Shown piece after piece: positions 19,965 through 47,604 of a stretch of DNA of 64,000 nucleotides. Each line of letters starts with the position of its first letter. The first letter of the stretch is position 1. Source of the stretch: Flavobacterium dauae (GTDB lineage Bacteria > Bacteroidota > Bacteroidia > Flavobacteriales > Flavobacteriaceae); contig NZ_CP130821.1 in assembly GCF_004151275.2 (NCBI RefSeq), positions 558,001 through 622,000 on the forward strand, written 5' to 3'. A program made the translations under genes and the position numbers. Below the pieces are notes generated by a model. That model made no database searches. It was not told where the DNA came from and saw nothing but the letters and a program-made list of their open reading frames with translations.

Positions 19965-20549
19965 ATGGAAAGAATGTCTGCTTTCGACGAAAAAGAGCTA
20001 CTTGCAGCTTTGCGGGGTGGGGATCCTACTGCTTTCAGTTCCATATTCCACAGATTTCATTCTTCACTGGTTTTCTTTGCAGAAAGAATTCTGACGGGGT
20101 ACGATATAACGGAAGCGGAAGAAACGGTACAGGACACTTTCATTAAACTATACGACCGCAAGGAAGCTTTTGATACGCTTCAGAACATCAAGGCTTTTCT
20201 TTACATCACCACCAAGAACGCGTGCTATGACCGCATTGCAAAGGAAAAGGTACGTCGTAAACGCTTTGACAGCTACATTGCCACCTTCGAGGAAGCGGAC
20301 GACCATATCCTACGTGAAATTACCTATGCCGAAGTGATACGGGAGGTCAGCATGGCAATAGACCTGTTACCGGAAAAATGCAGGGTGATTATGAAGCAGT
20401 TTTTCGATGAAGACAAAACTGCCAAAGAAATTGCCGATGACCTTGATATTACGGTAAGTACGGTAAACAACCAAAAAGCACGGGCTGTCGTGCTTCTGAA
20501 AAAAAGGCTTTCGGGAGCCGGAATCGCCCTTTTGTTGCTTTCCCTTTAA
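19965..20549 (+). CDS. ECF (FecI-like) RNA polymerase sigma factor
   Basis: This is a 194-aa sigma-70 family protein of the extracytoplasmic-function type. Region 2 spans ~residues 25-95, with AEETVQDTFIKLYDRKEAF as region 2.3-2.4. Region 4 spans ~130-185, with LPEKCRVIMKQFFDEDKTAKEIAD followed by an HTH. A second possible start lies at codon 4. It is 60 bp upstream of a FecR-type anti-sigma gene, followed by an STN-domain SusC. In such systems substrate binding to the receptor releases the sigma factor, which activates the receptor operon. Confidence 0.93.
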   Translation: MERMSAFDEKELLAALRGGDPTAFSSIFHRFHSSLVFFAERILTGYDITEAEETVQDTFIKLYDRKEAFDTLQNIKAFLYITTKNACYDRIAKEKVRRKRFDSYIATFEEADDHILREITYAEVIREVSMAIDLLPEKCRVIMKQFFDEDKTAKEIADDLDITVSTVNNQKARAVVLLKKRLSGAGIALLLLSL

Positions 20550-20609
20550 TTTTTTTCATTTTCCTTTAGAGAAGCTGTTGCATTTTTCCGTTTCTACGAA
20601 AAAGAAACA

Positions 20610-21776
20610 ATGCACGGGCAAGGTATTAACCGAAGTTTTAAACTGGGCGACATCATCCGCAAGCACATACAGCAACAAGAACTGGATAAGGAGGAACAAC
20701 GCCTGCTTACGGCATGGTTAGCGGAAGATCCGGAAAACCGGAAACTTTTTGACAGCCTTGGCGACCAGCAGTCGCTTGCCAATGCAATCAGGAGAATGCG
20801 GCAAAGTGATACTGCCATCCAGTGGGATATGGTTAACCGCCGGATCATCAGGCAGCGTGCGATAAAACGAATAAGGCGGTGGGCACCTGCTGCCGCAGCG
20901 GTGCTGTTGTTTTTCACGACCGGTCTGTGGTATTTTATCGACAGCAAAACCGTACCGGAGCCGCCCGTGTCTCCTTTGGCTACTGTTGAAGATGTGGCAC
21001 CGGGCACCAACCGGGCAACTCTTACGCTGGACGGCGGAGAATCCATTGTATTAAGTGAAGAAAAAGAAGGTATATCCATTACGGATGAAAGTATTCATTA
21101 TGACGACGGCACCTCGATTACAAAAACAGGGAAAATTGTCTATGCTACGATCAGCACACCACGTGCAGGTCAATACCATATAACCTTAGCCGATGGTAGC
21201 AGGGTATGGTTAAATGCGCAGACTTCATTACGTTATCCTACCCGTTTTGAATCCGACTCACGCGAGGTTTATATTGACGGGGAAGCATTTTTCGAGGTTG
21301 CCCATCTAAACGGCAAGCCATTCACTGTACATACGCCTTTACAGGATGTGATTGTGATGGGAACATCTTTCAACGTGTATGCGTATAAACAAGATAGTTC
21401 GCAGGTTACTACATTGGCTACCGGTAAGGTACGGATTGAAGGTACCGGCGACCATAAAAATACGGTTCATTCAATACTTTCACCCGGACAGCAGGCTGTT
21501 TTTGAAAATGGAAAAATGAACGTCAGACAGGTGGATGTCAACGGATATACATCGTGGAAAGACGGCTACTACATATTAGACAGCTACGACATTCATCAAT
21601 TTGCAAAGCAGATGGAACGCTGGTATGATGTGGATTTTGAAATCTCATCCGATAAACACATAAAAATATCGGGGGTCCTCTCGCGGAATCTTAACCTTTC
21701 AGAAGTGCTCTCTTCGATTTCGCAGAACCAGAATATTAAATTTGAAGTCAACGGAAGGAGGATAAAGGTATTGTAA
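20610..21776 (+). CDS. FecR-family anti-sigma factor
   Basis: The 388-aa inner-membrane protein has a cytoplasmic N-terminal domain (residues 1-88) that would bind the sigma factor. One transmembrane helix spans ~91-109 (APAAAAVLLFFTTGLWYF). The periplasmic FecR domain begins near YHITLADGSRVWLN, and a C-terminal DUF4974-like domain contains WYDVDFEI. It receives the signal from the STN domain of the downstream SusC. It sits between its sigma gene and susC on the same strand. Confidence 0.93.
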   Translation: MHGQGINRSFKLGDIIRKHIQQQELDKEEQRLLTAWLAEDPENRKLFDSLGDQQSLANAIRRMRQSDTAIQWDMVNRRIIRQRAIKRIRRWAPAAAAVLLFFTTGLWYFIDSKTVPEPPVSPLATVEDVAPGTNRATLTLDGGESIVLSEEKEGISITDESIHYDDGTSITKTGKIVYATISTPRAGQYHITLADGSRVWLNAQTSLRYPTRFESDSREVYIDGEAFFEVAHLNGKPFTVHTPLQDVIVMGTSFNVYAYKQDSSQVTTLATGKVRIEGTGDHKNTVHSILSPGQQAVFENGKMNVRQVDVNGYTSWKDGYYILDSYDIHQFAKQMERWYDVDFEISSDKHIKISGVLSRNLNLSEVLSSISQNQNIKFEVNGRRIKVL

Positions 21777-21799
21777 TTAAAGATTTCATGTGTTTGGAA

Positions 21800-21851
21800 C
21801 TGACAAATTAAAAATGCCGTCCCGAGGACGAGTCGGGACGGCGATTGTCAG
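21800..21851 (+). ncRNA. Two-stem leader hairpin in front of susC
   Basis: An outer stem CTGACAA/TTGTCAG (21800-21806, 21845-21851) encloses a 10-bp stem GCCGTCCCGA/TCGGGACGGC (21816-21825, 21833-21842) with a 7-nt loop. No T-run follows, so it is probably not a simple terminator. It may be an attenuator, an RNA-stabilising element or a processing site between fecR and susC, whose start is 57 nt on. Confidence 0.5.
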
Positions 21852-21907
21852 GCATTCTCAAAAGATTACTAACAAAATAATTATCTGCACCTAACATCAA
21901 CAAAGGT

Positions 21908-24900
21908 ATGAATTTTAAGATTCATGCAAAGGGGGATATGTTTTATCATCAACGACAAATCCCCTCACGCATTAACAACTTATCCAGCTATTTTCTTGCG
22001 ATGAAATTGATAGTACTACTAATGATTACAACTTTTAGTTCAGCATCTGCAAATCTTTTTGCGCAGCAGATCGACCTTGATTTAAAGAACGTTGATATCA
22101 AAAATGCGTTTATTGAAATTACACGTAAAGCGGGGTATAATTTTATTTACAGCGAGGAAATCCTCCAAATCGCTCATCCAGTAACCATTACCATCCATAA
22201 AACAAAAGTGGAGGAAGCTATCAGTGAGCTGTTTAAAGGACAGCCATTTGATTACTCAATCAAAGGTAAAACCGTCACCGTAAAACTGAAGAACGGACGA
22301 AAAGCACTTAACCTCATGACTACCGGACAAATAACAGTTTTCGGCACGGTCACAGATTCCACAGGCACACCCTTACCGGGAGTAACGGTGTCCGTAGTAG
22401 GATCGGATCTGAAAACCATCACCAATAGTGACGGAACATACAGAATCACAGTTGCCTCCGTTGAAAATCTTTTGTCGTTTTCACTTTTGGGATACCGGTC
22501 TGTTACGATACCATCCGGTACCGGAAAATTAGATATAGTACTTAAACAGGTATATACGGAGCTTTCGGAAGTGGATGTTAGTGTGAATACGGGCTATCAG
22601 GTATTGCCGAAAGAAAGGGCGACCGGTAGTTTTGTATATATTGATAGTAACTTGTTTAATCGTAGTGTGTCAACAAATATTTTAGATAGATTAAATGGAA
22701 TAACAAGTGGCTTATTATTTAATGGGCTGGCACTTAATACCCCGATTGATTACCCTTCACAATCAGGCAAAAATTTAGGTGTTAATATTCGCGGAGAAAA
22801 TACAATTAATGCTCCAACAGACCCATTAATAGTTTTAGACAACTTTCCATATGAAGGTAATTTATCAAGTATCAATCCGAATGATATAGAAAGTATATCA
22901 GTTCTTAAAGACGCAGCGGCGGCAAGCATATGGGGTGCGAAAGCCGGAAATGGAGTTATAGTTATTAGTACAAAAAGTGCAAAATATCACTCGAAGGTTA
23001 CAATAGATTTTAATTCAAGTTTAAATATTTTGAGCGCCCCAAATCTATTTGACAATCTTCGTTATATTTCATCCAAAGACTATATAGGGGTGGAACGGTT
23101 ACTTTTTGAAAATCAATATTTTAATGATGCTTTATCAAACGAAACTACTCATCCGGCAGTTTCACCAGCCGTAATATTATTAAATCAGCATAAAGAAGGA
23201 GATCTATCGGAAAGTGAACTCGAAGAACAACTTTTATATCTAAGTCTGCAAGATATAAGAAAAGATTATGACCAATACATATATAGAAGTTCCAAACAAC
23301 AACAATATTACTTAGCACTAAAAGGAGGCAATGACAACCATTCTTTTCACATATCAACAGGATATGATAATAATCAAAGAAACTTTATTAAAAGCCGTGA
23401 TCAAAGAAACACAATAAATATAGGACATAACACACAGCTCTTTAAAAAGCTAACCCTGCACTCCAACCTACTTTATAGTAGAAGTAAATATGAGAATATT
23501 GATAACGATTATCTGTATGGACGAAATACAAGTTTGAGCAGCATATACTCTGGAATATTTCCATACGCTCGTCTAATTGATGAGTTTGGCGACCCTGCTT
23601 CGATAGAAAGGGGAAATACCACAGCATATAAAAATAGTATGGAGTCGGTAGGTTTTAAAGACTGGTCGTTCCGCCCTTATCAAGAATTTCTTTTAGCCGA
23701 CGAAAGCCAGAGAATATCTGATATAACGATGCGATTCAACCTACACTACAAAATCTCTGCCCCCTTAAGCTTGAATGTCTTATATCAATATCAAAACCAA
23801 GTTATTAATAGAAGAAATTATAGTGATTCAGAAAGTTTTCAAGTAAGGGATTTAATAAACAAATTCGCGCAATTTGATGAAGCTACTGTATCCACAACTT
23901 ATATTTATCCAGAAGGTGCATTATTAAATGTCAACACATATGATTGGAAATCAAACAATCTTCGCGGACAATTAAACTATGATCGTACAATTGACAAACA
24001 CAACGTAACAGGGATACTGGGCACCGAAGTTCGTCAAATCAATGTTAGTGGATGGGGAAATACTTCATATGGCTACGATGATCAGTTTGGTACAAGTGTA
24101 ATGAATCTTGACTATACGAGAGCTTATCCAACGAATCCAAGTGGAACCGGTTATATCCAAGCACCGACGGGTGGAGAATATGGAGATTTACAACGATATA
24201 TTTCCTATTATACGAATTTAGGGTACTCATTCGAAGATAAATATATCCTAAATTTCAGTGCCAGAAAAGATGGTTCAAATCTTTTCGGCGTAAATACAAA
24301 TAATCGATTTACCCCCCTTTGGTCTGCCGGTTTAGGTTGGAATCTATCTAAAGAAAATTTTTATCATTCCCGTTTAATCCCTTACCTAAAGTTGCGAGTC
24401 ACCTATGGTTATAATGGTAATATAGGTACGACACCAGCCCAATTAACGGGGAGATATACCGGACCAAGGGCAGAAACCCCATTTCAATCTATTACGATTA
24501 TATCCGCTCCAAATCCCGAATTACGATGGGAAAGAATAAGGAATCTAAATACAGGATTAGATTTTTCATCAAAAAACAATAGGTTATCTGGTACGTTGGA
24601 ATGGTACAGAAAAGACGGTATTGATTTACTACAGCCCACTCCGTTGTCCCCTCAGACTGGCTTTAACAGCTTTATGGGTAACTTTGCAAAGGTACGAACG
24701 AAAGGCATAGACATAACGTTTAACAGTTTAAATACGAAAGGTTTTATTAACTGGAACACAACTTTACTCTATAGTTTTCTTGAGGATAAGCTTCTTAGGT
24801 ATGATGTTAAACCAACCGCTCAATCGGTATGGTACGGACGGTCATTAGTGGTGGGAAAATCCATGTACGGTCTTTACAGCTATGCGTGGGAAGGATTAGA

Positions 24901-25510
24901 TCCGCAGAACGGAGATCCTTTAGGTACTATAGATGGAGAAATTAGCAAAGATTATATTGCAATTGTTAATAATTACCTCCCCGATAGTTTAGTATACCAT
25001 GGTTCAAATAGACCTACTCATTTTGGTTCAATACGAAACGAATTCACTTATAAGAATTTAAGTTTTTCTGCCAATATTGTTTTTAAGTTAGGATACTATT
25101 TTAGAAGACCGTCCATTAACCTAAACTACAGCTCCATTCTAAAAGGTTCATACACAATAGATTTTGAAAATAGATGGCAAAAACCAGGAAATGAAAAGCA
25201 TAGTAATGTTCCTTCATTGACATATCCAGATAATATCAACAGAAACAACTTCTATCAATATTCCTCAAGTTTAATTGAAAATGCATCACATGTACGTCTT
25301 CAAGATATTCGGATCGCATACTTCTTTGGAAACGACTTGTTGAGCAATATTGGTATTCGTAGGCTTCAAGTTTATTCATATATATCCAATCTGGGAATAA
25401 TTTGGAGAAAGAATAATTATAACATTGATCCTGACGCATATAGTACAAATAGTTCCACAGTATTTCAATCACCTTTTAGCGTTGCGTTTGGTTTGAATCT
25501 AACCTTATAA
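21908..25510 (+). CDS. SusC/RagA-family TonB-dependent receptor with N-terminal STN domain
   Basis: This is a 1200-aa outer-membrane importer. A long N-terminus with a signal peptide ends near residue 52 (NLFAQQ). An STN signalling domain lies at ~55-110, a carboxypeptidase-regulatory-like beta-sandwich at ~120-215, then the plug (with IRGENTINAPTDPLIVLDN) and the beta-barrel, ending FGLNLTL. The STN domain fits control through the upstream FecI/FecR pair. Base composition changes sharply near 22.6 kb: the N-terminal signalling module matches the ICE, while the plug/barrel part is AT-rich like the downstream susD. The substrate is unknown. Confidence 0.95.
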   Translation: MNFKIHAKGDMFYHQRQIPSRINNLSSYFLAMKLIVLLMITTFSSASANLFAQQIDLDLKNVDIKNAFIEITRKAGYNFIYSEEILQIAHPVTITIHKTKVEEAISELFKGQPFDYSIKGKTVTVKLKNGRKALNLMTTGQITVFGTVTDSTGTPLPGVTVSVVGSDLKTITNSDGTYRITVASVENLLSFSLLGYRSVTIPSGTGKLDIVLKQVYTELSEVDVSVNTGYQVLPKERATGSFVYIDSNLFNRSVSTNILDRLNGITSGLLFNGLALNTPIDYPSQSGKNLGVNIRGENTINAPTDPLIVLDNFPYEGNLSSINPNDIESISVLKDAAAASIWGAKAGNGVIVISTKSAKYHSKVTIDFNSSLNILSAPNLFDNLRYISSKDYIGVERLLFENQYFNDALSNETTHPAVSPAVILLNQHKEGDLSESELEEQLLYLSLQDIRKDYDQYIYRSSKQQQYYLALKGGNDNHSFHISTGYDNNQRNFIKSRDQRNTINIGHNTQLFKKLTLHSNLLYSRSKYENIDNDYLYGRNTSLSSIYSGIFPYARLIDEFGDPASIERGNTTAYKNSMESVGFKDWSFRPYQEFLLADESQRISDITMRFNLHYKISAPLSLNVLYQYQNQVINRRNYSDSESFQVRDLINKFAQFDEATVSTTYIYPEGALLNVNTYDWKSNNLRGQLNYDRTIDKHNVTGILGTEVRQINVSGWGNTSYGYDDQFGTSVMNLDYTRAYPTNPSGTGYIQAPTGGEYGDLQRYISYYTNLGYSFEDKYILNFSARKDGSNLFGVNTNNRFTPLWSAGLGWNLSKENFYHSRLIPYLKLRVTYGYNGNIGTTPAQLTGRYTGPRAETPFQSITIISAPNPELRWERIRNLNTGLDFSSKNNRLSGTLEWYRKDGIDLLQPTPLSPQTGFNSFMGNFAKVRTKGIDITFNSLNTKGFINWNTTLLYSFLEDKLLRYDVKPTAQSVWYGRSLVVGKSMYGLYSYAWEGLDPQNGDPLGTIDGEISKDYIAIVNNYLPDSLVYHGSNRPTHFGSIRNEFTYKNLSFSANIVFKLGYYFRRPSINLNYSSILKGSYTIDFENRWQKPGNEKHSNVPSLTYPDNINRNNFYQYSSSLIENASHVRLQDIRIAYFFGNDLLSNIGIRRLQVYSYISNLGIIWRKNNYNIDPDAYSTNSSTVFQSPFSVAFGLNLTL

Positions 25511-25518
25511 TACTTACA

Positions 25519-26907
25519 ATGAAGAAAAAATATTTTTATACAATTGGATTACTGCTTTTAGTCGTAATATCGTGTGACAAGCAAAATGATTGGTTAGCTG
25601 CAAAGAAGCAAAAAGATCTGGTTATTCCGGAAAAACTTAAAGATTTTCAAGCTGTTCTGGACCAATTTACATCTATACATACGGCACTTCCTATTTTCGG
25701 ATTGGTAGGCACAGATGATTTTGTTCTAACTGATGCGGACTTCGACCGATGTCCAGAAGAAATAAGAAATGGATATATTTGGAACAAAAACATATGGAGC
25801 ACCGATGAATCTACAAATTGGACACAAGGTTTCGAAGTAATAATGCGTTCAAATGTAGTCTTGGACGGATTAAAAAATATTACAACAACATCAGCGACAC
25901 AATTAAAATATCGTGATATTGAAGGGCAGGCTTTTTTTTACCGCGCGTTGTTCTATTATGGCTTGTCACAATTATTCTGTAATGCGTACTCAAATAACGC
26001 AGACAAAGAACTTGGATTGCCACTACGGCTGACTTCCGATGTTAATATTGTCTCGCAACGGTCTTCTCTTGCTAAAACATATGAACAAATAATTTCAGAT
26101 GCTGTAACAGCATCTGAATTACTACCAGAAAAAAGTGCTAATAATAGAAGACCGTCTAAAGCCGCTGCATATGCCATTTTAGCAAAAACACATCTTGTAA
26201 TGGCTAATTTCGAGAAAGCTCTTTTTTATGCAGAAGAGGCACTGAAGTTAAGTGACTCACTATTAGACTTCAACTCAAATTATGCTACTATTTCCAACAC
26301 CTATAGATTTCCTGCCAACCCATTTGATCATCCTGAAATTATATTTTATGCTAAAGGCATGAGTTATGGTGCTGTTATGCCAGCAACGGCAGCACAGGCA
26401 GTAATAAGTGATACTTTGTATGACAGCTATGACGATTTTGATCTAAGAAAATCACTGTTTTATTATGTTAATACGAATAATCAGGTAAAATATAGAGGTA
26501 GTTATACTGGTACTAACTCAAATTTTTGTGGACTTGCAACTAACGAATTATATTTGATCAGTGCAGAATGTTATACACGTCAGGAACAAATTGACTTAGC
26601 TCAAAATCGAATCAATAAACTTTTAAAAAACCGTTACCAGCAAGATCATTATTCTGAAATCCTAATCGACAATAATGAGGATTTATTGATTTTTATACTG
26701 CAAGAACGTCGAAAAGAGTTAATCGGTGTGGGAAATATTAGATGGGAAGATCTAAAACGATTAAATATGGAAACACGATTTCAGAAAACGTTAACCCGCA
26801 ATTTAAAGGGGGAATTTTACGTGCTTCTTCCAAATAGTCCTTTATACACATTACCAATTCCCAATAATGAAATCCAAACCAGTAGCATTTCCCAAAATGA
26901 AAGGTAA
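25519..26907 (+). CDS. SusD/RagB-family substrate-binding lipoprotein
   Basis: The 462-aa lipoprotein has signal peptide MKKKYFYTIGLLLLVVISCD, with the lipobox Cys at residue 19. Its helical TPR-like fold includes EGQAFFYRALFYYGLSQLF and KAAAYAILAKTHL, and the C-terminal SusD block has LQERRKELIGVGNIRWEDLKR. It forms the lid on the SusC barrel and captures the ligand outside the cell. It starts 8 bp after susC and ends 7 bp before the thioredoxin-like gene, so the three are one transcript. It is shorter than many glycan-type SusDs; a peptide- or small-molecule-type substrate is possible but not shown. Confidence 0.93.
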   Translation: MKKKYFYTIGLLLLVVISCDKQNDWLAAKKQKDLVIPEKLKDFQAVLDQFTSIHTALPIFGLVGTDDFVLTDADFDRCPEEIRNGYIWNKNIWSTDESTNWTQGFEVIMRSNVVLDGLKNITTTSATQLKYRDIEGQAFFYRALFYYGLSQLFCNAYSNNADKELGLPLRLTSDVNIVSQRSSLAKTYEQIISDAVTASELLPEKSANNRRPSKAAAYAILAKTHLVMANFEKALFYAEEALKLSDSLLDFNSNYATISNTYRFPANPFDHPEIIFYAKGMSYGAVMPATAAQAVISDTLYDSYDDFDLRKSLFYYVNTNNQVKYRGSYTGTNSNFCGLATNELYLISAECYTRQEQIDLAQNRINKLLKNRYQQDHYSEILIDNNEDLLIFILQERRKELIGVGNIRWEDLKRLNMETRFQKTLTRNLKGEFYVLLPNSPLYTLPIPNNEIQTSSISQNER

Positions 26908-26914
26908 ACCTAAC

Positions 26915-28384
26915 ATGAAGATTCTTTTGACTACGTTATTATTCGTGATTGGATATGTAGAAGTTTATGCCCAAAACCTGCCAAAGTACAGTCTTGATAT
27001 TACTGTTAATTTGACAAACACACTTCCAGGTGACACACTTATATTGGAATTAATTGATCAATGGACATTGAAAAAGCATTCTGAAATTAAAACTGGTGTT
27101 TCTAAAGGCGGGAATTTCACTTTCCATACGAATCCGGTTCAGTCAGCGGGCTTTTGGATGTTACAATTAGTTCGAAATAGTGACGATACGCAAGCACGAG
27201 AAGACAGGGCTATTACTAATATCTTCTTTTGGGAAGATCAAGATAATATTTCATTATCTCTCAGTACAGAATTGGGTCAGTTAACGGGAATTAAAAGCAA
27301 ATATAAGTTTTCCGGAACTGGTTACCTAAAATATCAGTTAAAAGCCGATTTTAATGATGACACCTATCTCAATAGCTGTTTTTCCGATTATAGGGATGGA
27401 TATTTTTCGAAAGATTTTGAATATATCAGGGAATATAATCCTTGTCTTGAAGAACAACTGTCTATTTTAGATAGTAAAAAAAAAGAGTTGTCAGAAATCG
27501 CTTATTTGTCGTTAAAAAGCGATATTATTTACAATTTCCCACGTAGCTTTGCCACAAGTGTTCGAAATTTTATCTATGAAAATTCTTACGACGTTGAAAA
27601 ATTAAAAAATAATTACTTCACCTCCACTAAAGAAATTTTCTCTCAGGATGATAACCCGTATTTTTTTTATTCATATGGAGCAGTAGGGCGTATTCAGGAA
27701 AAATTAATGACAGATTTAAGGGTATCAATTTATCCTCTAAAAAATGTATCTGATTATTATACTTATTTAAAAAATAACACAGCAGGAGAGGCACGAGAAA
27801 GGCTAATAGTGCACTATTTTGCCAATTACAGGCAGTCAAAGAAAACTGATAGCTTGATTGCTGATGCGTTGACTTTTTTCAAAACTGAGGAAGGAATACA
27901 AGAGTTGAAAAAGTTAGAGGCTCCACTTCCTATCAGTATTGGGAAAGGTTACAAATTTATTGATCACAATGGACAACAATTCAATTTGGATAGCCTAAAT
28001 GGTAAAGTTATTTTAATTGATGTGTATAATCCCGGTTGTATCCCATGCATACATTTGTACAAGAACGTTATTTCTAAAATCAAAAATGATTTTAGAAATA
28101 ATCCTGATTTCATTGTATTATCACTGTCGGTTGAGCAAAGTGACGATATGTATCACAAAACTTTGGCAACAGGATTATATACATCATTTACGGACAATAC
28201 TATAAATGTATATACGGGAGCGGTCGGCAGAAGGCATCCGTTTTTAATACAAAATAAATTTTATTTTAATCCTTCCGTATTATTGATTGATAAGGATGGC
28301 AAAACGCGTTACATAAATAACGATTTTTTCTTTCAGTATGAAAAATTAAAGCCAATAATAATAAAGCTATTAGATAACAAGTGA
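26915..28384 (+). CDS. TlpA-like thioredoxin-fold protein with DUF4369-like N-terminal part
   Basis: The chosen start is the ATG at 26915, because it begins a clean signal peptide, MKILLTTLLFVIGYVEVYAQ; a longer upstream frame overlaps susD. The 489-aa periplasmic protein has an N-terminal beta-rich domain, a long helical middle and a C-terminal thioredoxin fold (residues ~350-489) with the redox motif CIPC near 373-376. SusC-SusD-TlpA sets are common in Bacteroidetes, and the reductase may act on the imported ligand or on envelope proteins. The AT-rich composition matches the susC barrel and susD. Confidence 0.88.
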   Translation: MKILLTTLLFVIGYVEVYAQNLPKYSLDITVNLTNTLPGDTLILELIDQWTLKKHSEIKTGVSKGGNFTFHTNPVQSAGFWMLQLVRNSDDTQAREDRAITNIFFWEDQDNISLSLSTELGQLTGIKSKYKFSGTGYLKYQLKADFNDDTYLNSCFSDYRDGYFSKDFEYIREYNPCLEEQLSILDSKKKELSEIAYLSLKSDIIYNFPRSFATSVRNFIYENSYDVEKLKNNYFTSTKEIFSQDDNPYFFYSYGAVGRIQEKLMTDLRVSIYPLKNVSDYYTYLKNNTAGEARERLIVHYFANYRQSKKTDSLIADALTFFKTEEGIQELKKLEAPLPISIGKGYKFIDHNGQQFNLDSLNGKVILIDVYNPGCIPCIHLYKNVISKIKNDFRNNPDFIVLSLSVEQSDDMYHKTLATGLYTSFTDNTINVYTGAVGRRHPFLIQNKFYFNPSVLLIDKDGKTRYINNDFFFQYEKLKPIIIKLLDNK

Positions 28385-28390
28385 AATATA

Positions 28391-28420
28391 GAAAGCCGTC
28401 TGGAAATTCAAACGGCTTTA
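28391..28420. terminator. Bidirectional terminator between the TlpA-like and DUF6520-like genes
   Basis: AAAGCCGT (28392-28399) pairs with ACGGCTTT (28412-28419) between two convergent genes. Confidence 0.75.
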
Positions 28421-28423
28421 AAT

Positions 28424-28738
28424 TTACTGAGCAAATTCCGGTTGTTTGGAATTAATAGTAGTTTGTAAAGGATCATTAACGTCAGAAATTAAAATTTGAT
28501 CGCCAGATACATTAGCTGTTGTTTCAATTTCACAAGGGCGTAAATTTCCAAAACCACATTGACTTTCTTCTGGCTCACTCATACTAACTTTGTAATGGGT
28601 GGAACTTGCTAACTCGGTTACCCAGTAAGTTTGTGGTAATTTTTTAATTTCTTCATTGTTTGCTTTTGAAAATGCAAAAGCTCCTATTGTGCCCGCAGCA
28701 AGAACGATTGCTGCTGAGGCGATTTTAATTCGGTTCAT
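28424..28738 (-). CDS. DUF6520-like small secreted protein
   Basis: This 104-aa protein starts at the ATG at 28738, which gives a signal peptide MNRIKIASAAIVLAAGTIGAF. An upstream ATG at 28843 would read through the leader RNA and is unlikely. Two cysteines lie in SQCGFGNLRPCEI, and the tail has no membrane segment. It resembles the small DUF6520 proteins frequent in Bacteroidetes, of unknown function. It is preceded by copy A of the duplicated leader RNA and may be co-transcribed with the upstream lipoprotein gene. Confidence 0.7.
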   Translation of the reverse strand: MNRIKIASAAIVLAAGTIGAFAFSKANNEEIKKLPQTYWVTELASSTHYKVSMSEPEESQCGFGNLRPCEIETTANVSGDQILISDVNDPLQTTINSKQPEFAQ

Positions 28739-28773
28739 AATAAAATTGTTATAAAAATTTACAAATAGTGTGA

Positions 28774-28919
28774 TGCGGTATATTACCGCAATACGGTTTG
28801 CAAAGGCATAGACAAGAAAAAGGTCTATGGGTTTCTTGTACAATCCAAAAAGGTTAAACGATACACATTCAATAGATCCGGAATTCGGATACGTGGTCTT
28901 CGGTCTTTAGATTTGACCG
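28774..28919 (-). ncRNA. Structured leader RNA, copy A (upstream of the DUF6520-like gene)
   Basis: Read on the minus strand there are four helices. P1 is CGGTC/GACCG (915-919 with 901-905). P2 is ATCCG/CGGAT (86-90 with 76-80). In P3 an outer stem TTGTA/TGCAA encloses CATAGAC/GTCTATG, with internal-loop strands CAAGAAACC and CCTT. P4 is TGCGGTA/TACCGCA (784-790 with 774-780). (Offsets are from 28000 or 28800.) The outer P3 stem has a G-U pair that exists only in minus-strand RNA. Copy B at 30033 has the same layout with compensatory changes. Confidence 0.7.
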
Positions 28920-28970
28920 TTTATTTTAGGGTTAATCATCGAATAAATCGGTGAGATTTCTTTTTCTTGT

Positions 28971-29999
28971 TTAAGGCAACGCCAGAATAGCAGTCTCCAC
29001 TTGCGAATAACTTGTCGTAGTTATTAAGCCGCTTGATGGTACGATATATATACCTGTGCTGGAAATAGCGGTCGAAAGGATATAGTACACGTAGTTACCA
29101 GCTTGTTCTCCGACAAAAATAATGTGGCAGTCCAATCCTACCGGAACAAGCCCTGTATGCTCTTCAAACGTGTTGGTAGCTGAATAGAACATATCAAATT
29201 GCGCAAGCATATTTTCTTCTCCTTCGACAGCAAGATATACCGAAGAATTACTTTGGTCAAATCCTGCCGGTGGTGTAACTTTAAGTTTTACTTTAGTTCC
29301 AGGCCAGCTTGACAAGCGATCAATGTTGCACCATCCGAAACTTCCGGAATCTTTGATAAGCACATCGTATATTCCTGTTCCGTTCTTACCACCAAAAACG
29401 GCACCGTCCACTTCAAACTCCAGATCGTTGGTACTTGCTCCATCCCAGGTTAAGTCGCCATTGGGATCAATGGCACCATTCCATAATACCATATTGGCAG
29501 GGTTTGCTTTGGAATTGCTTGTATTGATATTTACTTTTATCGGCGTAACGATTTTCACTTGTTGTCCATTATAACTTATATCGAGGTAAAATTCACCACC
29601 GGTAACCAAAAATCCTTTGTCCCCCGTAGGTAAGTTTGCAACTGTAGGTTTGTTCGTTACCACCATTTTAGCACGGTTAAAGATTTCCATGTATTCAATT
29701 TTGATGTTTCCGTTAATCGGCTTTCCATCGTTTGTTGCGATGGAACCCGGTGGTATCACGATGGAGCCCCGTGTGTTTGTGGTAAAAGTTGCGCCCCTTT
29801 GGTTGTCATAATAAATGGTTCCTCCCTGGTTAATATCGGCAAGTGCCGAATTTCGTAAATTTTCCAAGCCGGGGCTCCCTTTACCGGCAACCGTGTTGTT
29901 TTGCGTTGTTTGATTATCGGTTTCATTGGTTACAGACTCTGAATCACAGGAAACAAAGATGAATGAAGCAGCCACTAGGGTAAAAATTAATTTTTTCAT
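28971..29999 (-). CDS. Lipoprotein with ZU5-like/beta-sandwich domains
   Basis: This 342-aa protein has a lipoprotein signal, MKKLIFTLVAASFIFVSCDS, with the lipobox Cys at residue 18. It has an Asn/Thr-rich linker and then beta-rich sequence. The block GSIVIPPGSIATNDGKPING (about residues 78-97) resembles the start of ZU5-type or similar surface domains. The likely location is the outer membrane or cell surface. It is preceded by copy B of the leader RNA. Next in the same direction is the DUF6520-like gene. No function is assigned. Confidence 0.72.
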   Translation of the reverse strand: MKKLIFTLVAASFIFVSCDSESVTNETDNQTTQNNTVAGKGSPGLENLRNSALADINQGGTIYYDNQRGATFTTNTRGSIVIPPGSIATNDGKPINGNIKIEYMEIFNRAKMVVTNKPTVANLPTGDKGFLVTGGEFYLDISYNGQQVKIVTPIKVNINTSNSKANPANMVLWNGAIDPNGDLTWDGASTNDLEFEVDGAVFGGKNGTGIYDVLIKDSGSFGWCNIDRLSSWPGTKVKLKVTPPAGFDQSNSSVYLAVEGEENMLAQFDMFYSATNTFEEHTGLVPVGLDCHIIFVGEQAGNYVYYILSTAISSTGIYIVPSSGLITTTSYSQVETAILALP

Positions 30000-30032
30000 A
30001 TTAAATCGTTATAAAGTTTATACTATTTTCGA

Positions 30033-30183
30033 GCGGACATTATCCGCGAAGTGACCTGCGAAGGCATAGACAGAAAGTTGGAACGTCTATGGGTTTCTTG
30101 CGCAGTCCGGTAAAAGTTAAATTACTATGCTTTAATAGATCCGAAAAATCGGATACCGGGCTTCGGTTTTCTTTTTGGAACCG
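30033..30183 (-). ncRNA. Structured leader RNA, copy B (upstream of the lipoprotein gene)
   Basis: On the minus strand P1 is CGGTT/AACCG (30179-30183 with 30164-30168) and P2 is ATCCGA/TCGGAT (30149-30154 with 30139-30144). The outer P3 stem is CTGCG/CGCAG (30101-30105 with 30056-30060) around CATAGAC/GTCTATG (30085-30091 with 30065-30071). P4 is GCGGA/TCCGC (30043-30047 with 30033-30037). Loop strands CAAGAAACC and CCTT, and CTATT after P2, are identical to copy A. P1, P3-outer and P4 differ from copy A by paired changes that keep the helix. P4 ends 34 nt before the start codon. Confidence 0.72.
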
Positions 30184-30242
30184 TTACAGGGGGTGGAATA
30201 TTTTCCGCAAATGAATGTGAGCTTTCATTTTTGATATTTTCC

Positions 30243-30273
30243 ACCATACAAGTATTATAAATGCTTGTATGGT
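30243..30273. repeat. 10-bp inverted repeat between the leader RNA and the repeat array
   Basis: ACCATACAAG (30243-30252) and CTTGTATGGT (30264-30273) are perfect inverted arms with an 11-nt loop. There is no T-run on either strand. It may be an operator. Confidence 0.5.
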
Positions 30274-30368
30274 AAAATTATATGTTAAAGAAGCATAAAA
30301 CAATAGTTTGGAGTGAGATGACAGGACAAATTTGACGAGTCTGCAAAAAGACAACGGTTTTACTGGGC

Positions 30369-30465
30369 TGTGTTATTTCGTCGCCGACGAAATAACACAA
30401 ATTTCCGACGAGATAACATCATTTTCCGATGAAACAACAGTAATTCCGACCAAACAACATAAAAA
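30369..30465. promoter_or_regulatory. Tandem ~21-bp repeat array with an inverted lead unit, candidate LytTR binding sites
   Basis: Units beginning CCGA (consensus CCGACGAAATAACA) start at 30384, 30405, 30426 and 30446, so the period is 21, 21 and 20 bp. The first unit is preceded by an inverted copy, giving perfect 15-bp arms (30369-30383 and 30385-30399) around one central base. LytTR-domain regulators bind direct repeats about two helical turns apart, and the neighbouring gene encodes one. Binding is inferred. Confidence 0.55.
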
Positions 30466-30513
30466 AATGTTAAAAAAGAAGGTTCTAAATTGTGTTTTTG
30501 TGTTAAAAATATC

Positions 30514-31416
30514 TTAAAGAGCACCAAAGTGGGAAATAATGACTTCAACATAGTTTTTTGTCACGGTAAACCGGTCTTCTCCATAATGTTTAATAAGTGG
30601 CTCAAATTCGTCCAGAAATTTAAGTACTAGCGTATTCCGTTTCTCACCATTCGTATAAGCCTCGAAAATCTTACCATTGACAATCACGGATCTGTTTATC
30701 CTGTGAAAATCAGCTGCCGGTAATACCTCTTCCAGATGGCTCAGATTGCGGTCTATAATAATTTCTTCTTCATTGCAATTCACCAGATAAATATTTTTGT
30801 CGTTTGCATAGAAAAACAGGATATAATCTGTTATCGCAATGTCAATCTCGATTTTTGGAAAGAGTTCAGCAATGCGATCCTTTCTTTCCTCTGAAGAAAT
30901 TGTATTTTCAATTTTGACTATACTTACCCCGGTCGGAACATCTTCGTCGATGCTATTAAACATATACGGCTGGTTTTGAATTTTACTGGTAGCCAACAGG
31001 AAATGTACGGCATAATAGAAATTCAGCAATAGGATAAAGCAAACAATTATGGGAAAATCATATCTAAGAAATCCGTTTTTAAAGATATTGGTTCCCATAA
31101 AGTAAAAATAGACGGACATCAATGTAAAATCGAAGACCAGCGGAACTAAGACACCAAATAACAGTTGGCGGAATGTCCGCGTTTTGGAAGTCTCACGCCA
31201 ATCAAAACGGACATCGAGTGAGGTGGTAACAAAATGCACCCAGGTTACCAAGAGTAATGCAATTGCGAAACTAACCGTAAAGGCAATGTAAAAGACAGGG
31301 TTGCGAAGTTCTCCGATGATGTCTAATGATCTTCCGTGGAATAAAATGTAGTAGGATGCAATAAGGGCAGCAAGAATCCTGAAACCTTTGTTTCTGTAAT
31401 GTAATTGTGTTTCCAT
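30514..31416 (-). CDS. Membrane-bound LytTR-family transcriptional regulator (module 1)
   Basis: The 300-aa protein has four predicted membrane helices in its first ~150 residues, then a linker and a C-terminal LytTR DNA-binding domain (residues ~195-300). That domain includes DYILFFYANDKNIYLV, LSHLEEVLPAADFHRINRSVIVN and a final beta-strand region. There is no receiver domain, so the membrane part may sense the signal directly. It is divergent from a 128-aa gene (96 bp between the starts). The same pair recurs at 43914-45301. A 21-bp-period repeat array begins about 50 bp beyond its stop. Confidence 0.85.
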   Translation of the reverse strand: METQLHYRNKGFRILAALIASYYILFHGRSLDIIGELRNPVFYIAFTVSFAIALLLVTWVHFVTTSLDVRFDWRETSKTRTFRQLLFGVLVPLVFDFTLMSVYFYFMGTNIFKNGFLRYDFPIIVCFILLLNFYYAVHFLLATSKIQNQPYMFNSIDEDVPTGVSIVKIENTISSEERKDRIAELFPKIEIDIAITDYILFFYANDKNIYLVNCNEEEIIIDRNLSHLEEVLPAADFHRINRSVIVNGKIFEAYTNGEKRNTLVLKFLDEFEPLIKHYGEDRFTVTKNYVEVIISHFGAL

Positions 31417-31512
31417 AAGTAAGGTTTTTATATAATTTGAAATTAAATATAAAGAAAATTTATTAACTTTATTGAATTACAATATATTAATTAACCTAAA
31501 CACCAATATCTT

Positions 31513-31899
31513 ATGGCAACATTGTACCCATTTACCCCGGAGGGAGTCCAGGACAAACTCGACGAATTATACGCACTTTCAGACCCTGCATTATTTGCTC
31601 AGGCTGACGCAATCGAAGCTGATTTCGGCAGCTGGATTATAAATAATTTTTCATTATCGGTGGAACAGCAATCTTTTCTCGATAATATGAATGACGAAGC
31701 TTTAAATTATTTTGGATCGCAGTGCGCGTTATGCTTCCGGCACCGACGACCGATTACGCTCATTTATCCGTCACCACCAACAACCCCGGGATATGCGAAG
31801 CTACCCGAAAGCAGCAATACGTTAAAAGTCAATTCGGATGATTCCGGAAACATTGAAGTAACCGGATCGCTGACTTTTACCATGGTCTACAGAACATAA
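31513..31899 (+). CDS. Small protein of LytTR module 1 (paralogue of 44930-45301)
   Basis: This 128-aa protein has no signal peptide or membrane segment. The N-terminal half is helical (GVQDKLDELYALSDPALFAQ, then DFGSWIINNFSLSVEQQSFLD). It matches the protein at 44930 position by position: KxxELxAL, AQA, DFxxW, NFxL, QxxFLD. The C-terminal half is beta-rich and diverged. The family is not recognised. Its fixed place opposite a membrane LytTR regulator in both modules suggests it is that regulator's partner or target. A terminator follows it. Confidence 0.7.
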   Translation: MATLYPFTPEGVQDKLDELYALSDPALFAQADAIEADFGSWIINNFSLSVEQQSFLDNMNDEALNYFGSQCALCFRHRRPITLIYPSPPTTPGYAKLPESSNTLKVNSDDSGNIEVTGSLTFTMVYRT

Positions 31900-43913: not shown

Positions 43914-44819
43914 TTACCGTTTCATCCAGAGCTTGAATTTAGGCGTCCTGTTTTCACTTACCACCGTAAGCTTGATGTATTCGGGAGGTATGTCACTGTG
44001 TACCGGGTACATTTCCGGATCAAGCGTAAGGAGTAGTGTCTTGGCGGTTTCCTGCCGGAAGGAAACCACGGATTGGAAATGGACGGTCATCTGGCGGTTG
44101 ATGCGGAAGAATTTTGACGGGTCGAGCAGTGCTTCGAGGTCTTTCAGCGAATAATTGGTCTGGTAACTTTCATTAATATCCGTCATATCCCTTAACCGTA
44201 TGAAAACCCCGTCGCTCATACGGAAGATGTAGGCAATATCATCCGTACTAACGGGAAATGTTTTCAGGGTGGTCGTAATGATAATGGTTTCACGGTAGGT
44301 GTGCTCCGCAGGTGGTTCCTGCGGGGCTGCTTCTGCCGACGAAACAGCTATAATCGGCCTGGCAACTAAAAAACTGTACAGTCCGAAATAGTAAAGGTTG
44401 GCAGTAAGCAACATCAAAAGAACCAGCGGGTAATCCTGCTCCAGATAAACGGTATCGAGGATCTTGATGCCATATATCCACAGAAACAGGGCAACCAGCA
44501 GAAAGACTATAATTGCAGGTGCAATAAATCCGATGCATACTTGCAGGATAAAACGGATAAGGGTATGGTTGTGCCAGTCGTACCTCCGGTCAAGACGGAT
44601 GGTTATGTAATAGATATACCAAAGCATCATGTATGCCATTACCAAACTGGCAATAAATCCCCGGAGATAGGAGATGGTAAAAATAGCTTCAAAAAAACCG
44701 TCCTGCTCATTATAAATCGTCATGATATGGGCGGCGATAACGGCGAGAAAGATGCGGATCGGCAGATCGCTATACCGTACCGTCCGTGGCTCTGCGGAAT
44801 CCTGTATTGGTGCTTTCAT
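43914..44819 (-). CDS. Membrane-bound LytTR-family transcriptional regulator (module 2)
   Basis: The 301-aa protein has the same plan as 30514-31416: four membrane helices in the first ~160 residues, a linker and a C-terminal LytTR domain containing DIAYIFRMSDGVFIRL and LEALLDPSKFFRINRQMTVH. The TM regions also share features with module 1 (LDRRYDWHN versus LDVRFDWRE). It is divergent from a 123-aa gene with 110 bp between starts. The repeat of the pair on one element argues for a functional unit. Confidence 0.85.
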   Translation of the reverse strand: MKAPIQDSAEPRTVRYSDLPIRIFLAVIAAHIMTIYNEQDGFFEAIFTISYLRGFIASLVMAYMMLWYIYYITIRLDRRYDWHNHTLIRFILQVCIGFIAPAIIVFLLVALFLWIYGIKILDTVYLEQDYPLVLLMLLTANLYYFGLYSFLVARPIIAVSSAEAAPQEPPAEHTYRETIIITTTLKTFPVSTDDIAYIFRMSDGVFIRLRDMTDINESYQTNYSLKDLEALLDPSKFFRINRQMTVHFQSVVSFRQETAKTLLLTLDPEMYPVHSDIPPEYIKLTVVSENRTPKFKLWMKR

Positions 44820-44929
44820 AAGGCAGCTGCGAAACTTGCGTTTCCGGCAAGAATTACATTTTAATTGGGTAACTTGTTGATATTGTAACGGATAAACCTT
44901 AAAATTGTTGTCATCAATACTTTAAAGAC

Positions 44930-45301
44930 ATGGCAAGAGTACCTTTAACAACGGCAGGCGTGCTGCAAAAACAGGAAGAACTGTTTGCCCTTGCACAGCC
45001 CGAACTGGATGCACAGGCTGCTTCGCTGACCACAGATTTTCGTTTGTGGGTAAGTGATAATTTTGAGCTGACTCCCCAGGAACAGGGATTTCTCGACAGT
45101 GCGGACGACAATTTTATCCGGCTGCTTTCTTCGGTGGTTTTCGTTAGCGTGAGAAACCGCCTGCCGATAGATTTCGTTAAATCGACGGTGGTAACGGCAG
45201 TCAAAAGGTTCGACACCACATCAAGTTTCGATTTCAGTTACCAGTGGGGCGGTGCGCTCACATCCGATACGGACGTTAAGCTGGAAATTGTATATACCTG
45301 A
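44930..45301 (+). CDS. Small protein of LytTR module 2 (paralogue of 31513-31899)
   Basis: This 123-aa protein has a helical N-terminal half (GVLQKQEELFALAQPELDAQ, then DFRLWVSDNFELTPQEQGFLD) matching the module 1 protein, and a beta-rich C-terminal half. It has no signal peptide. The family is unrecognised. It is more G+C-rich than its module 1 counterpart, so the two pairs may have separate histories rather than arising from a recent duplication. A terminator follows. Confidence 0.7.
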   Translation: MARVPLTTAGVLQKQEELFALAQPELDAQAASLTTDFRLWVSDNFELTPQEQGFLDSADDNFIRLLSSVVFVSVRNRLPIDFVKSTVVTAVKRFDTTSSFDFSYQWGGALTSDTDVKLEIVYT

Positions 45302-46996: not shown

Positions 46997-47220
46997 TTTA
47001 AGTTAAACTTTTACGCTTTGGTGGAGTTCCTGCATTGCACACTTTATACAAATGCTTCAAAAGACGTCAAAAAGCAACAAAACGAATAATTAAACCATTG
47101 GTAATTAATGATTTGTATGCTATTCAGTGAGTAAAAATAGAATTTAAAATGACTCACCGTTTAACTCACATTTACATTGATATTCCTTGGGATATTTTGA
47201 TATGAAATAAAACAAAAAAA
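46997..47220. other. ICE-chromosome boundary region (attachment site expected here)
   Basis: No gene is seen. Base composition drops to the chromosomal AT-rich level across it. GTGAGT/ACTCAC inverted arms flank a short AT-rich stretch near 47.13-47.16 kb, and tRNA-Pro lies just to the right. The exact core of recombination is not visible without the other end of the element. Confidence 0.5.
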
Positions 47221-47250
47221 CCGCAAATCCATAGAATTTGCGGGTTTTTG
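47221..47250. terminator. Terminator downstream of tRNA-Pro
   Basis: CCGCAAAT (47221-47228) pairs with ATTTGCGG (47236-47243). A T-run follows on both strands; on the minus strand it would end the tRNA transcript. Confidence 0.75.
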
Positions 47251-47272
47251 ACTTTACTTAATGTAAGTGTTG

Positions 47273-47347
47273 TCGGGGTGGCAGGATTCGAACCTGCGAC
47301 CTCCTGGTCCCAAACCAGGCGCGATAACCGGGCTACGCTACACCCCG
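47273..47347 (-). tRNA. tRNA-Pro (anticodon TGG), copy 1
   Basis: The acceptor stem is CGGGGTG/CACCCCG, the anticodon arm CCTGG-TTTGGGA-CCAGG gives anticodon TGG, and the T-arm is GCAGG-TTCGAAT-CCTGC. CCA is not encoded. Its 3' end faces the integrase. Confidence 0.95.
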
Positions 47348-47379
47348 AAGAGTATCTATTTAAACAATTAAAATTTTAG

Positions 47380-47454
47380 TCGGGGTGGCAGGATTCGAAC
47401 CTGCGACCTCCTGGTCCCAAACCAGGCGCGATAACCGGGCTACGCTACACCCCG
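47380..47454 (-). tRNA. tRNA-Pro (anticodon TGG), copy 2
   Basis: This 75-nt gene is identical to copy 1 and lies 32 nt upstream of it in the same direction, so the two are probably one transcript. Confidence 0.95.
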
Positions 47455-47604
47455 AATAATCTTTAATTGCGAGTGCAAATATAATTATTTTTTTATTCTG
47501 TGTCAATATTTTTATATTTTTTTAAATTACTTAATGATAGAATCAATCAATCACATCATAGATATTTAAAAGGACACTTTCTTTTATATCCATTCATAAA
47601 TACC

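Follow-up and report, generated by a model that had tools for sequence, protein, structure and literature searches.

A putative structured 5' leader RNA in two copies upstream of two exported-protein genes in Flavobacterium dauae

Results

Genes and setting of the two leaders

The window analysed here is a stretch of 64,000 nt from Flavobacterium dauae (contig NZ_CP130821.1, positions 558,001 to 622,000). On its minus strand a LytTR regulator gene (30514-31416) is followed by leader copy B (30029..30184), the gene for a 342-aa lipoprotein (28971..29999), leader copy A (28770..28920), the gene for a 104-aa exported protein (28424..28738) and, in a simple pattern scan, a terminator-like hairpin (28392..28419). 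The labels 'lipoprotein' and 'exported' are readings of the N-termini. The 342-aa protein matches no Pfam family at E 0.001, and a protein search returned 38 relatives among the matches listed (31-91% identical), 28 of which make up alignment A4. For the 104-aa protein, the sole relative listed in the protein search was the protein itself (one of eight candidates). Its gene had been described as DUF6520-like, a label that is dropped here: up to E 10 the only Pfam row is DUF4910 (E 0.19), and DUF6520 is not among the results. Neither downstream protein matches any metabolic or transport family.

The surroundings of the leaders look like an integrative conjugative element. Genes for a relaxase, a TraG-type coupling protein, a topoisomerase, a helicase (part scanned) and a tyrosine recombinase lie in the neighbourhood, the last of these adjoining two tRNA-Pro genes. 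With regard to the ends of the element, no 18-mer from the tRNA-Pro region (47191-47520) is repeated elsewhere in the window, and an attachment repeat was thus not identified. The plus strand of 19965-28384, convergent to the genes behind the leaders, carries genes for an ECF-type sigma factor, FecR, SusC-like, SusD-like and weakly thioredoxin-like proteins, a cluster that constitutes surface-uptake cargo.

Several regulatory features occur near the leaders. Upstream of B, a predicted promoter-like site on the minus strand (TTG-N20-TAATTTTA, 30273-30303) has one mismatch to the pattern TTG/TAnnTTTG, and a second predicted one-mismatch match occupies 30327-30354; a near-palindrome (30243-30273) is located close to the start expected from the first site. 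The -7 consensus behind this pattern comes from PMC9723704. Around A, the 255 nt scanned hold no match within two mismatches. Sites of the sigma-70 type number 8 in 28300-30600 against 6.5 expected and therefore carry no weight, including one (28764-28737, minus strand) whose end coincides with the beginning of the small gene. The simple terminator scan found no site on the minus (gene) strand within A or B or after their P4; it did match the minus strand inside the lipoprotein gene (29126-29142) and the plus strand twice, once inside B (30155-30167). In predicted folds the start regions are 50-62% unpaired on average.

Between the LytTR gene and leader B there is an array of about 3.9 copies of the 21-bp repeat CCGACGAAACAACATAAATTT (30384-30463), adjoined by a perfect 15-bp inverted repeat (30369-30399). 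The two-helical-turn spacing of the array suggests that it serves a regulator, perhaps the LytTR protein. The window encodes a pair of LytTR regulators that share 23% identity over 274 columns and have a hydrophobic N-terminal part. Both lie divergent to a small protein, and the two small proteins belong to one family (36% identity across 85 aa); 30514-31899 and 43914-45301 together form a duplicated two-gene module.

Structure of the leader

Each leader is about 150 nt long and folds into helices P1, P2 (enclosing P2a), P3 and P4. In copy A, on the minus strand, these are the P1 hairpin CGGUC/GACCG (28901..28919); a weak P2 of three pairs, CCA/UGG (28845..28896), within which lie P2a (AUCCG/CGGAU) and a possible P2b (UUGAA/UUUAA); P3 (28798..28843), with an AAACC internal loop and the invariant inner stem CAUAGAC/GUCUAUG; and the P4 hairpin GCGGU/ACCGC (28775..28789). 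Copy B has the corresponding P1 CGGUU/AACCG (30164..30183), P2 CCGG/CCGG (30107..30159) around P2a and a possible P2b, P3 with the same internal loop and inner stem (30056..30105), and P4 GCGGA/UCCGC (30033..30047). The strands named in the original prediction were all recovered on the minus strand, namely P1 (CGGTC/GACCG in A, CGGTT/AACCG in B), the outer P3 (TTGTA/TGCAA in A, CTGCG/CGCAG in B), P4 and the inner stem CATAGAC/GTCTATG. Its helix model stands for these helices and lacked P2 and P2a, which co-vary, as well as the doubtful P2b.

The similarity of the two copies is far beyond chance: the upstream regions of A and B have a local alignment score of 135, and none of 500 mononucleotide shuffles scored above 48. 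Covariance models were built from A and B alone (R1) and from A, B and the third copy C described below (R2); R2 matches B and also A, the latter at C1:586756-586921 of the organism's own genome. Each sequence is also more stable than expected, with single-sequence fold z-scores of -3.1 (A), -2.6 (B) and -3.5 (C) and 2, 3 and 1 shuffles, respectively, as stable as the native sequence among 200 dinucleotide shuffles each. In the MAFFT alignment of A, B and C (A5), the RNAalifold consensus reaches -24.0 kcal/mol against -5.7 +/- 2.5 (z -7.3), and none of 1000 column shuffles, which preserved gaps and the identity pattern, was as low. The reverse complement of A5 folds nearly as well (z -6.6), so folding energy alone cannot pick the strand. 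The minus strand was instead chosen by the U-G/G-U pairs of A and the orientation of all three downstream genes; the earlier remark on the strand was correct in that minus-strand RNA has a U-G pair in the outer P3 of A.

Not every helix is equally well represented in the predicted folds. The single-sequence fold of A contains P2a and P2b and omits P2; in that of B another small hairpin takes the place of P2b, which is likewise absent from the minimum-energy fold of C and from the alifold consensus. As only the fold of A includes it, P2b is treated as doubtful. P1 is clear by eye in each single sequence and is missing from the alifold consensus, A5 having the P1 of A out of register. In folds extended by 60 nt of coding sequence, C retains P1, P2, P2a, P3 and P4; B retains P2, P2a, P3 and P4 and loses P1; and A retains P1, P2a, the core stem and P4 and loses the outer P3.

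A third copy in Paenimyroides baculatum

Searching 14 loci that hold relatives of the lipoprotein (148 kb) with R1, a model blind to it, found copy C in Paenimyroides baculatum (locus L040, 4829-4972, E 4.3e-11); the runner-up across the same loci had an E-value of 9.9. Copy C is 28 nt upstream of the start of a lipoprotein gene whose product is 85% identical to that of the window, and P. baculatum seems to belong to the genus of the window under the classification of the genome set, where an 85% locus with the same contig number and position is labelled as congeneric. The similarity is thus not confined to the pair A and B. B and C are orthologous leaders, while A is the sole copy that precedes a different gene, and in all three the leader stops about 30 nt short of a start codon and has the orientation of the gene. 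Copy C departs from the others in that P1 lacks its fifth pair, two of the five P2b pairs are broken and the CUU of P3 is shifted by one, moving the inner P3 pairs. Its single promoter-pattern match has two mismatches and lies inside the leader (4862-4889 of L040).

Covariation was assessed on a structure of 37 pairs in seven helices, named on A5. Paired cells amount to 93.7% across the 37 pairs, a figure biased upwards as the structure was partly drawn from A, B and C themselves. Two-sided changes affect 8 of the 37 pairs against a shuffle mean of 3.3, with 1 of 500 shuffles as high, and sliding the partners leaves 0-2 such pairs; the count is 9 of 38 in a hand alignment and 9 of 30 in RNAalifold's own consensus, all of these being thin statistics drawn from three members. 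The co-varying helices are P2, P2a, P3 and P4. Together with the third copy and the consensus z-score, these changes support the structured leader with compensatory changes that was originally proposed.

Identities within A5 are about equal (A-B 63.3%, A-C 62.7%, B-C 63.9%), indicating that the A/B split is approximately as old as the B/C split. Between the lipoprotein genes behind B and C, 52 of 130 comparable fourfold sites are identical, which is near saturation. Against this background the blocks GUAUCC, GGAUCU, AAGAAACCCAUAGAC and UGUCUAUGC are the same in A, B and C and map to P2a with its flanks and to the P3 core. The invariant blocks of 15 nt and 9 nt suggest selection, given that silent sites are near saturated and the copies only about 63% identical.

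The core of P3 required some revision. The strands CAAGAAACC and CCTT, described as a fixed and unpaired loop, are indeed fixed in A and B, but C retains AAGAAACC only; and the AAG of this 'loop' pairs with CUU, which leaves AAACC opposite a C residue. AAACC has an unpaired probability of at least 0.95 in B and C and of 0.70-0.98 in A, and CAUAGAC is paired in all three. The hairpin loops of the core stem differ in length (9, 13 and 8 nt), which is easier to reconcile with an RNA than with DNA bound by a protein dimer.

Distribution

The many copies that the original proposal asked for as support were not found, and the known members are three in all (A, B and C), two in the organism's own 2.94-Mb genome and one in P. 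baculatum. Across the phylum, R1 matched 1 of 296 genomes at E <= 0.001, the window's own, and an exact core pattern likewise occurred only in the window's own genome among 395. A shorter pattern of 16 bases with one mismatch allowed was found in 5 of 60 relatives, with single matches in the four other than its own. Of 299 congeneric genomes, among which P. baculatum is not included, 16 had R2 matches at E <= 1 and only the own genome was significant; the best other match (0.0056 per genome) is at chance level for a sample of 299. In the surveys of 296 and 299 genomes, strict filtering limited the scoring to 9 or 10 candidates from each genome, and weak members may have escaped them. A laxer run over 40 relatives gave the own genome and three matches at 0.022-0.026. 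In the genomes of seven lipoprotein loci, five had matches at E <= 1, strong in P. baculatum and weak in four (0.019-0.6), and the 101 genomes of P. baculatum's genus yielded P. baculatum plus two weak places already seen in the 299-genome survey. It should be noted that these genome samples overlap, so that their counts must not be summed, and that E-values of R1 and R2 are rough due to a short calibration.

Six weak matches were inspected, five from the 15 other places in the 299 genomes and one from the four in the lipoprotein-locus genomes. Three were rejected for overlapping ORFs of at least 70 aa (L055, L059 and L072), one as a 40-nt hairpin without AAGAAACC (L056) and one that skips the P3 core (L058). 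The match most worth a second look (L057, 1501-1626; R2, E 0.02) lies before an exported-protein-like gene in a congeneric genome and keeps AUAAGAAAC with flanking UUGCA/UGCAA, with the core stem broken.

The leader does not accompany the lipoprotein family throughout. None of ten lipoprotein orthologs at 46-58% identity (L041-L050) has a significant R1 or R2 match, and L040 remained the only significant match when R1 was run on L014-L037 and L040-L053 and R2 on L014-L022 and L040-L053. The leader is therefore not an obligate companion of this family. The obvious place to look for more members is among the listed relatives at 61-91% identity (P0002-P0009), seen here as proteins, one of which may be that of P. 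baculatum. A different upstream motif, AGTCCGGAAT, occurs about 85-105 nt before the lipoprotein ATG in nine of L041-L050 and in L081 (10 of 11 aligned sequences, L050 being without it) and may be a second leader or a promoter element of the family. Like the leader, it is a conserved 5' region of one lipoprotein gene family, but its sequence differs, and R1 and R2 are not significant in L041-L050.

Among mobile genomes, viral contigs contained no match to the core patterns and no lipoprotein relative; a looser pattern hit at least 120 stretches, 80 of which were scored with R2 (best E 0.88). Plasmids had no match to leader A or the lipoprotein, and phages had none to leader B.

Discussion

Relation to known RNAs

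The leader looks like a rare, uncatalogued RNA of a kind already known in flavobacteria. At gathering threshold, Rfam 15 identifies two tRNAs only in the whole window, in agreement with the original statement that no known class could be recognised. With permissive filters up to E 10 around the leaders, all matches fall far below gathering scores; the best to touch a leader, isrK on the opposite strand (E 0.79), was discarded at 17 bits, its gathering score being 50. No report of the motif was found in Rfam or in text-based literature searches. The Flavo-1 RNA motif, which is presumably present in Rfam, does not appear in the cmscan rows, either for the window at gathering threshold or for the leader regions up to E 10. 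Like the leader, Flavo-1 is a computational RNA motif of the Flavobacteriaceae with no assigned function, although it is widespread. It is named in PMC9723704, which also lists 64 structured 5' transcribed regions of Flavobacterium psychrophilum and proposes a regulatory role. These too are folded flavobacterial mRNA leaders, several of them conserved beyond the species and lacking an Rfam match, but the named examples precede other genes (pheA, hisG, ftsY, acsA, alaS and rimP); beyond these, the present motif may overlap with the listed regions.

A probable cis-acting leader and its alternatives

That A, B and C are a real structured RNA is very probable. That A and B represent a single cis-acting structured 5' leader RNA in two copies, co-transcribed with the genes behind them, is the probable reading, at a lower level of confidence; both estimates rest on the co-variation of P2, P2a, P3 and P4. 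We infer that the region is transcribed at all, that leader B, the lipoprotein gene, leader A and the small gene share one transcript, that the action is post-transcriptional, and that the partner is a protein in preference to a small molecule. The invariant core consists of the AAACC internal loop on the 7-bp CAUAGAC/GUCUAUG stem, together with P2a and the flanks of that stem. This core would be recognised by a partner, for which a protein is the most likely candidate, and which would set the translation or stability of the next cistron. Were the two leaders and both genes on one transcript, a leader would stand before each cistron, and control of translation or decay would be favoured over premature termination. 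The absence of a gene-strand terminator in A or B from the simple scan makes a cis-acting post-transcriptional leader the best reading. In autoregulatory leaders of the ribosomal-protein type, a protein reads an invariant RNA core and controls translation; here, by contrast, the downstream genes appear to encode exported proteins and the partner protein is hypothetical.

A more ambitious version of the leader reading is possible but doubtful. It holds that A, B and C are the founding members of a new RNA class with a fixed recognition core, controlling flavobacterial surface lipoproteins in cis. The leader would have travelled together with the gene it controls onto an integrative conjugative element, and there another leader would tune a second cistron. 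Should this be true, the ligand or partner would be new.

The strongest alternative is an orphan riboswitch, in which a small molecule binds the AAACC loop and P2a and thereby alters surface-protein expression. The ligand- or protein-binding core originally suggested would fit the invariant bulge and stem, and a fold of several helices, the outer ones variable, around an unpaired strand that does not vary, placed before two unrelated genes, is what a riboswitch would present. An invariant 7-bp helix is nevertheless unusual for a pure ligand pocket, and the invariant stem suggests recognition by a protein. There is also no obvious expression platform, given the lack of a minus-strand terminator-like site in A or B and the partly unpaired starts, though a translational switch would still be compatible; nor do the downstream proteins belong to a recognised metabolic or transport family. 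A riboswitch is considered unlikely.

It is improbable that the element is a trans-acting non-coding RNA, made from its own promoter or processed from the leader, for which its position before genes would be secondary. The stable stand-alone folds would accommodate such an RNA, and base pairing of the conserved core with a target, or binding of a chaperone to it, is conceivable, but all three copies keep their place about 30 nt before a start codon in one orientation, and the scan of A and B found no terminator-like site after P4.

The invariance of the inner repeat and the LytTR gene upstream raise the possibility of a DNA operator, in which CATAGAC/GTCTATG and its flanks would bind a transcription factor such as the neighbouring LytTR regulator. 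This is quite improbable. The arm spacings of 9, 13 and 8 nt are out of helical phase, the co-variation of P2, P2a, P3 and P4 extends over the whole span, the 21-bp array is a better candidate for a LytTR site, and by eye no LytTR gene is among the ORFs of L040.

Control by a short translated frame, as a leader peptide or attenuator, is hardly credible: each leader does contain short open frames, and in A the frame 28424-28843 is open from part of the leader into the gene, but six-frame translations inspected by eye reveal no peptide common to A, B and C, and the indels between copies are 1, 4 and 5 nt. Two copies no more than 1.3 kb apart, on what is likely an integrative element, could recall a MITE- or REP-like mobile or repetitive element that landed before genes by chance, an explanation made very improbable by the few copies found (P. 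baculatum has one and the 2.94-Mb genome two), their age (63% identical) and their constant distance from start codons.

Implications for the Flavobacteriaceae

The narrow range of the leader RNA limits its impact. If confirmed as a cis-acting leader, it would add an orphan leader RNA to those of flavobacteria, one that has a compact, testable core of 15 and 9 invariant nucleotides. Finding one leader in front of two unrelated genes would suggest that cargo of the mobile element is jointly controlled at the post-transcriptional level.
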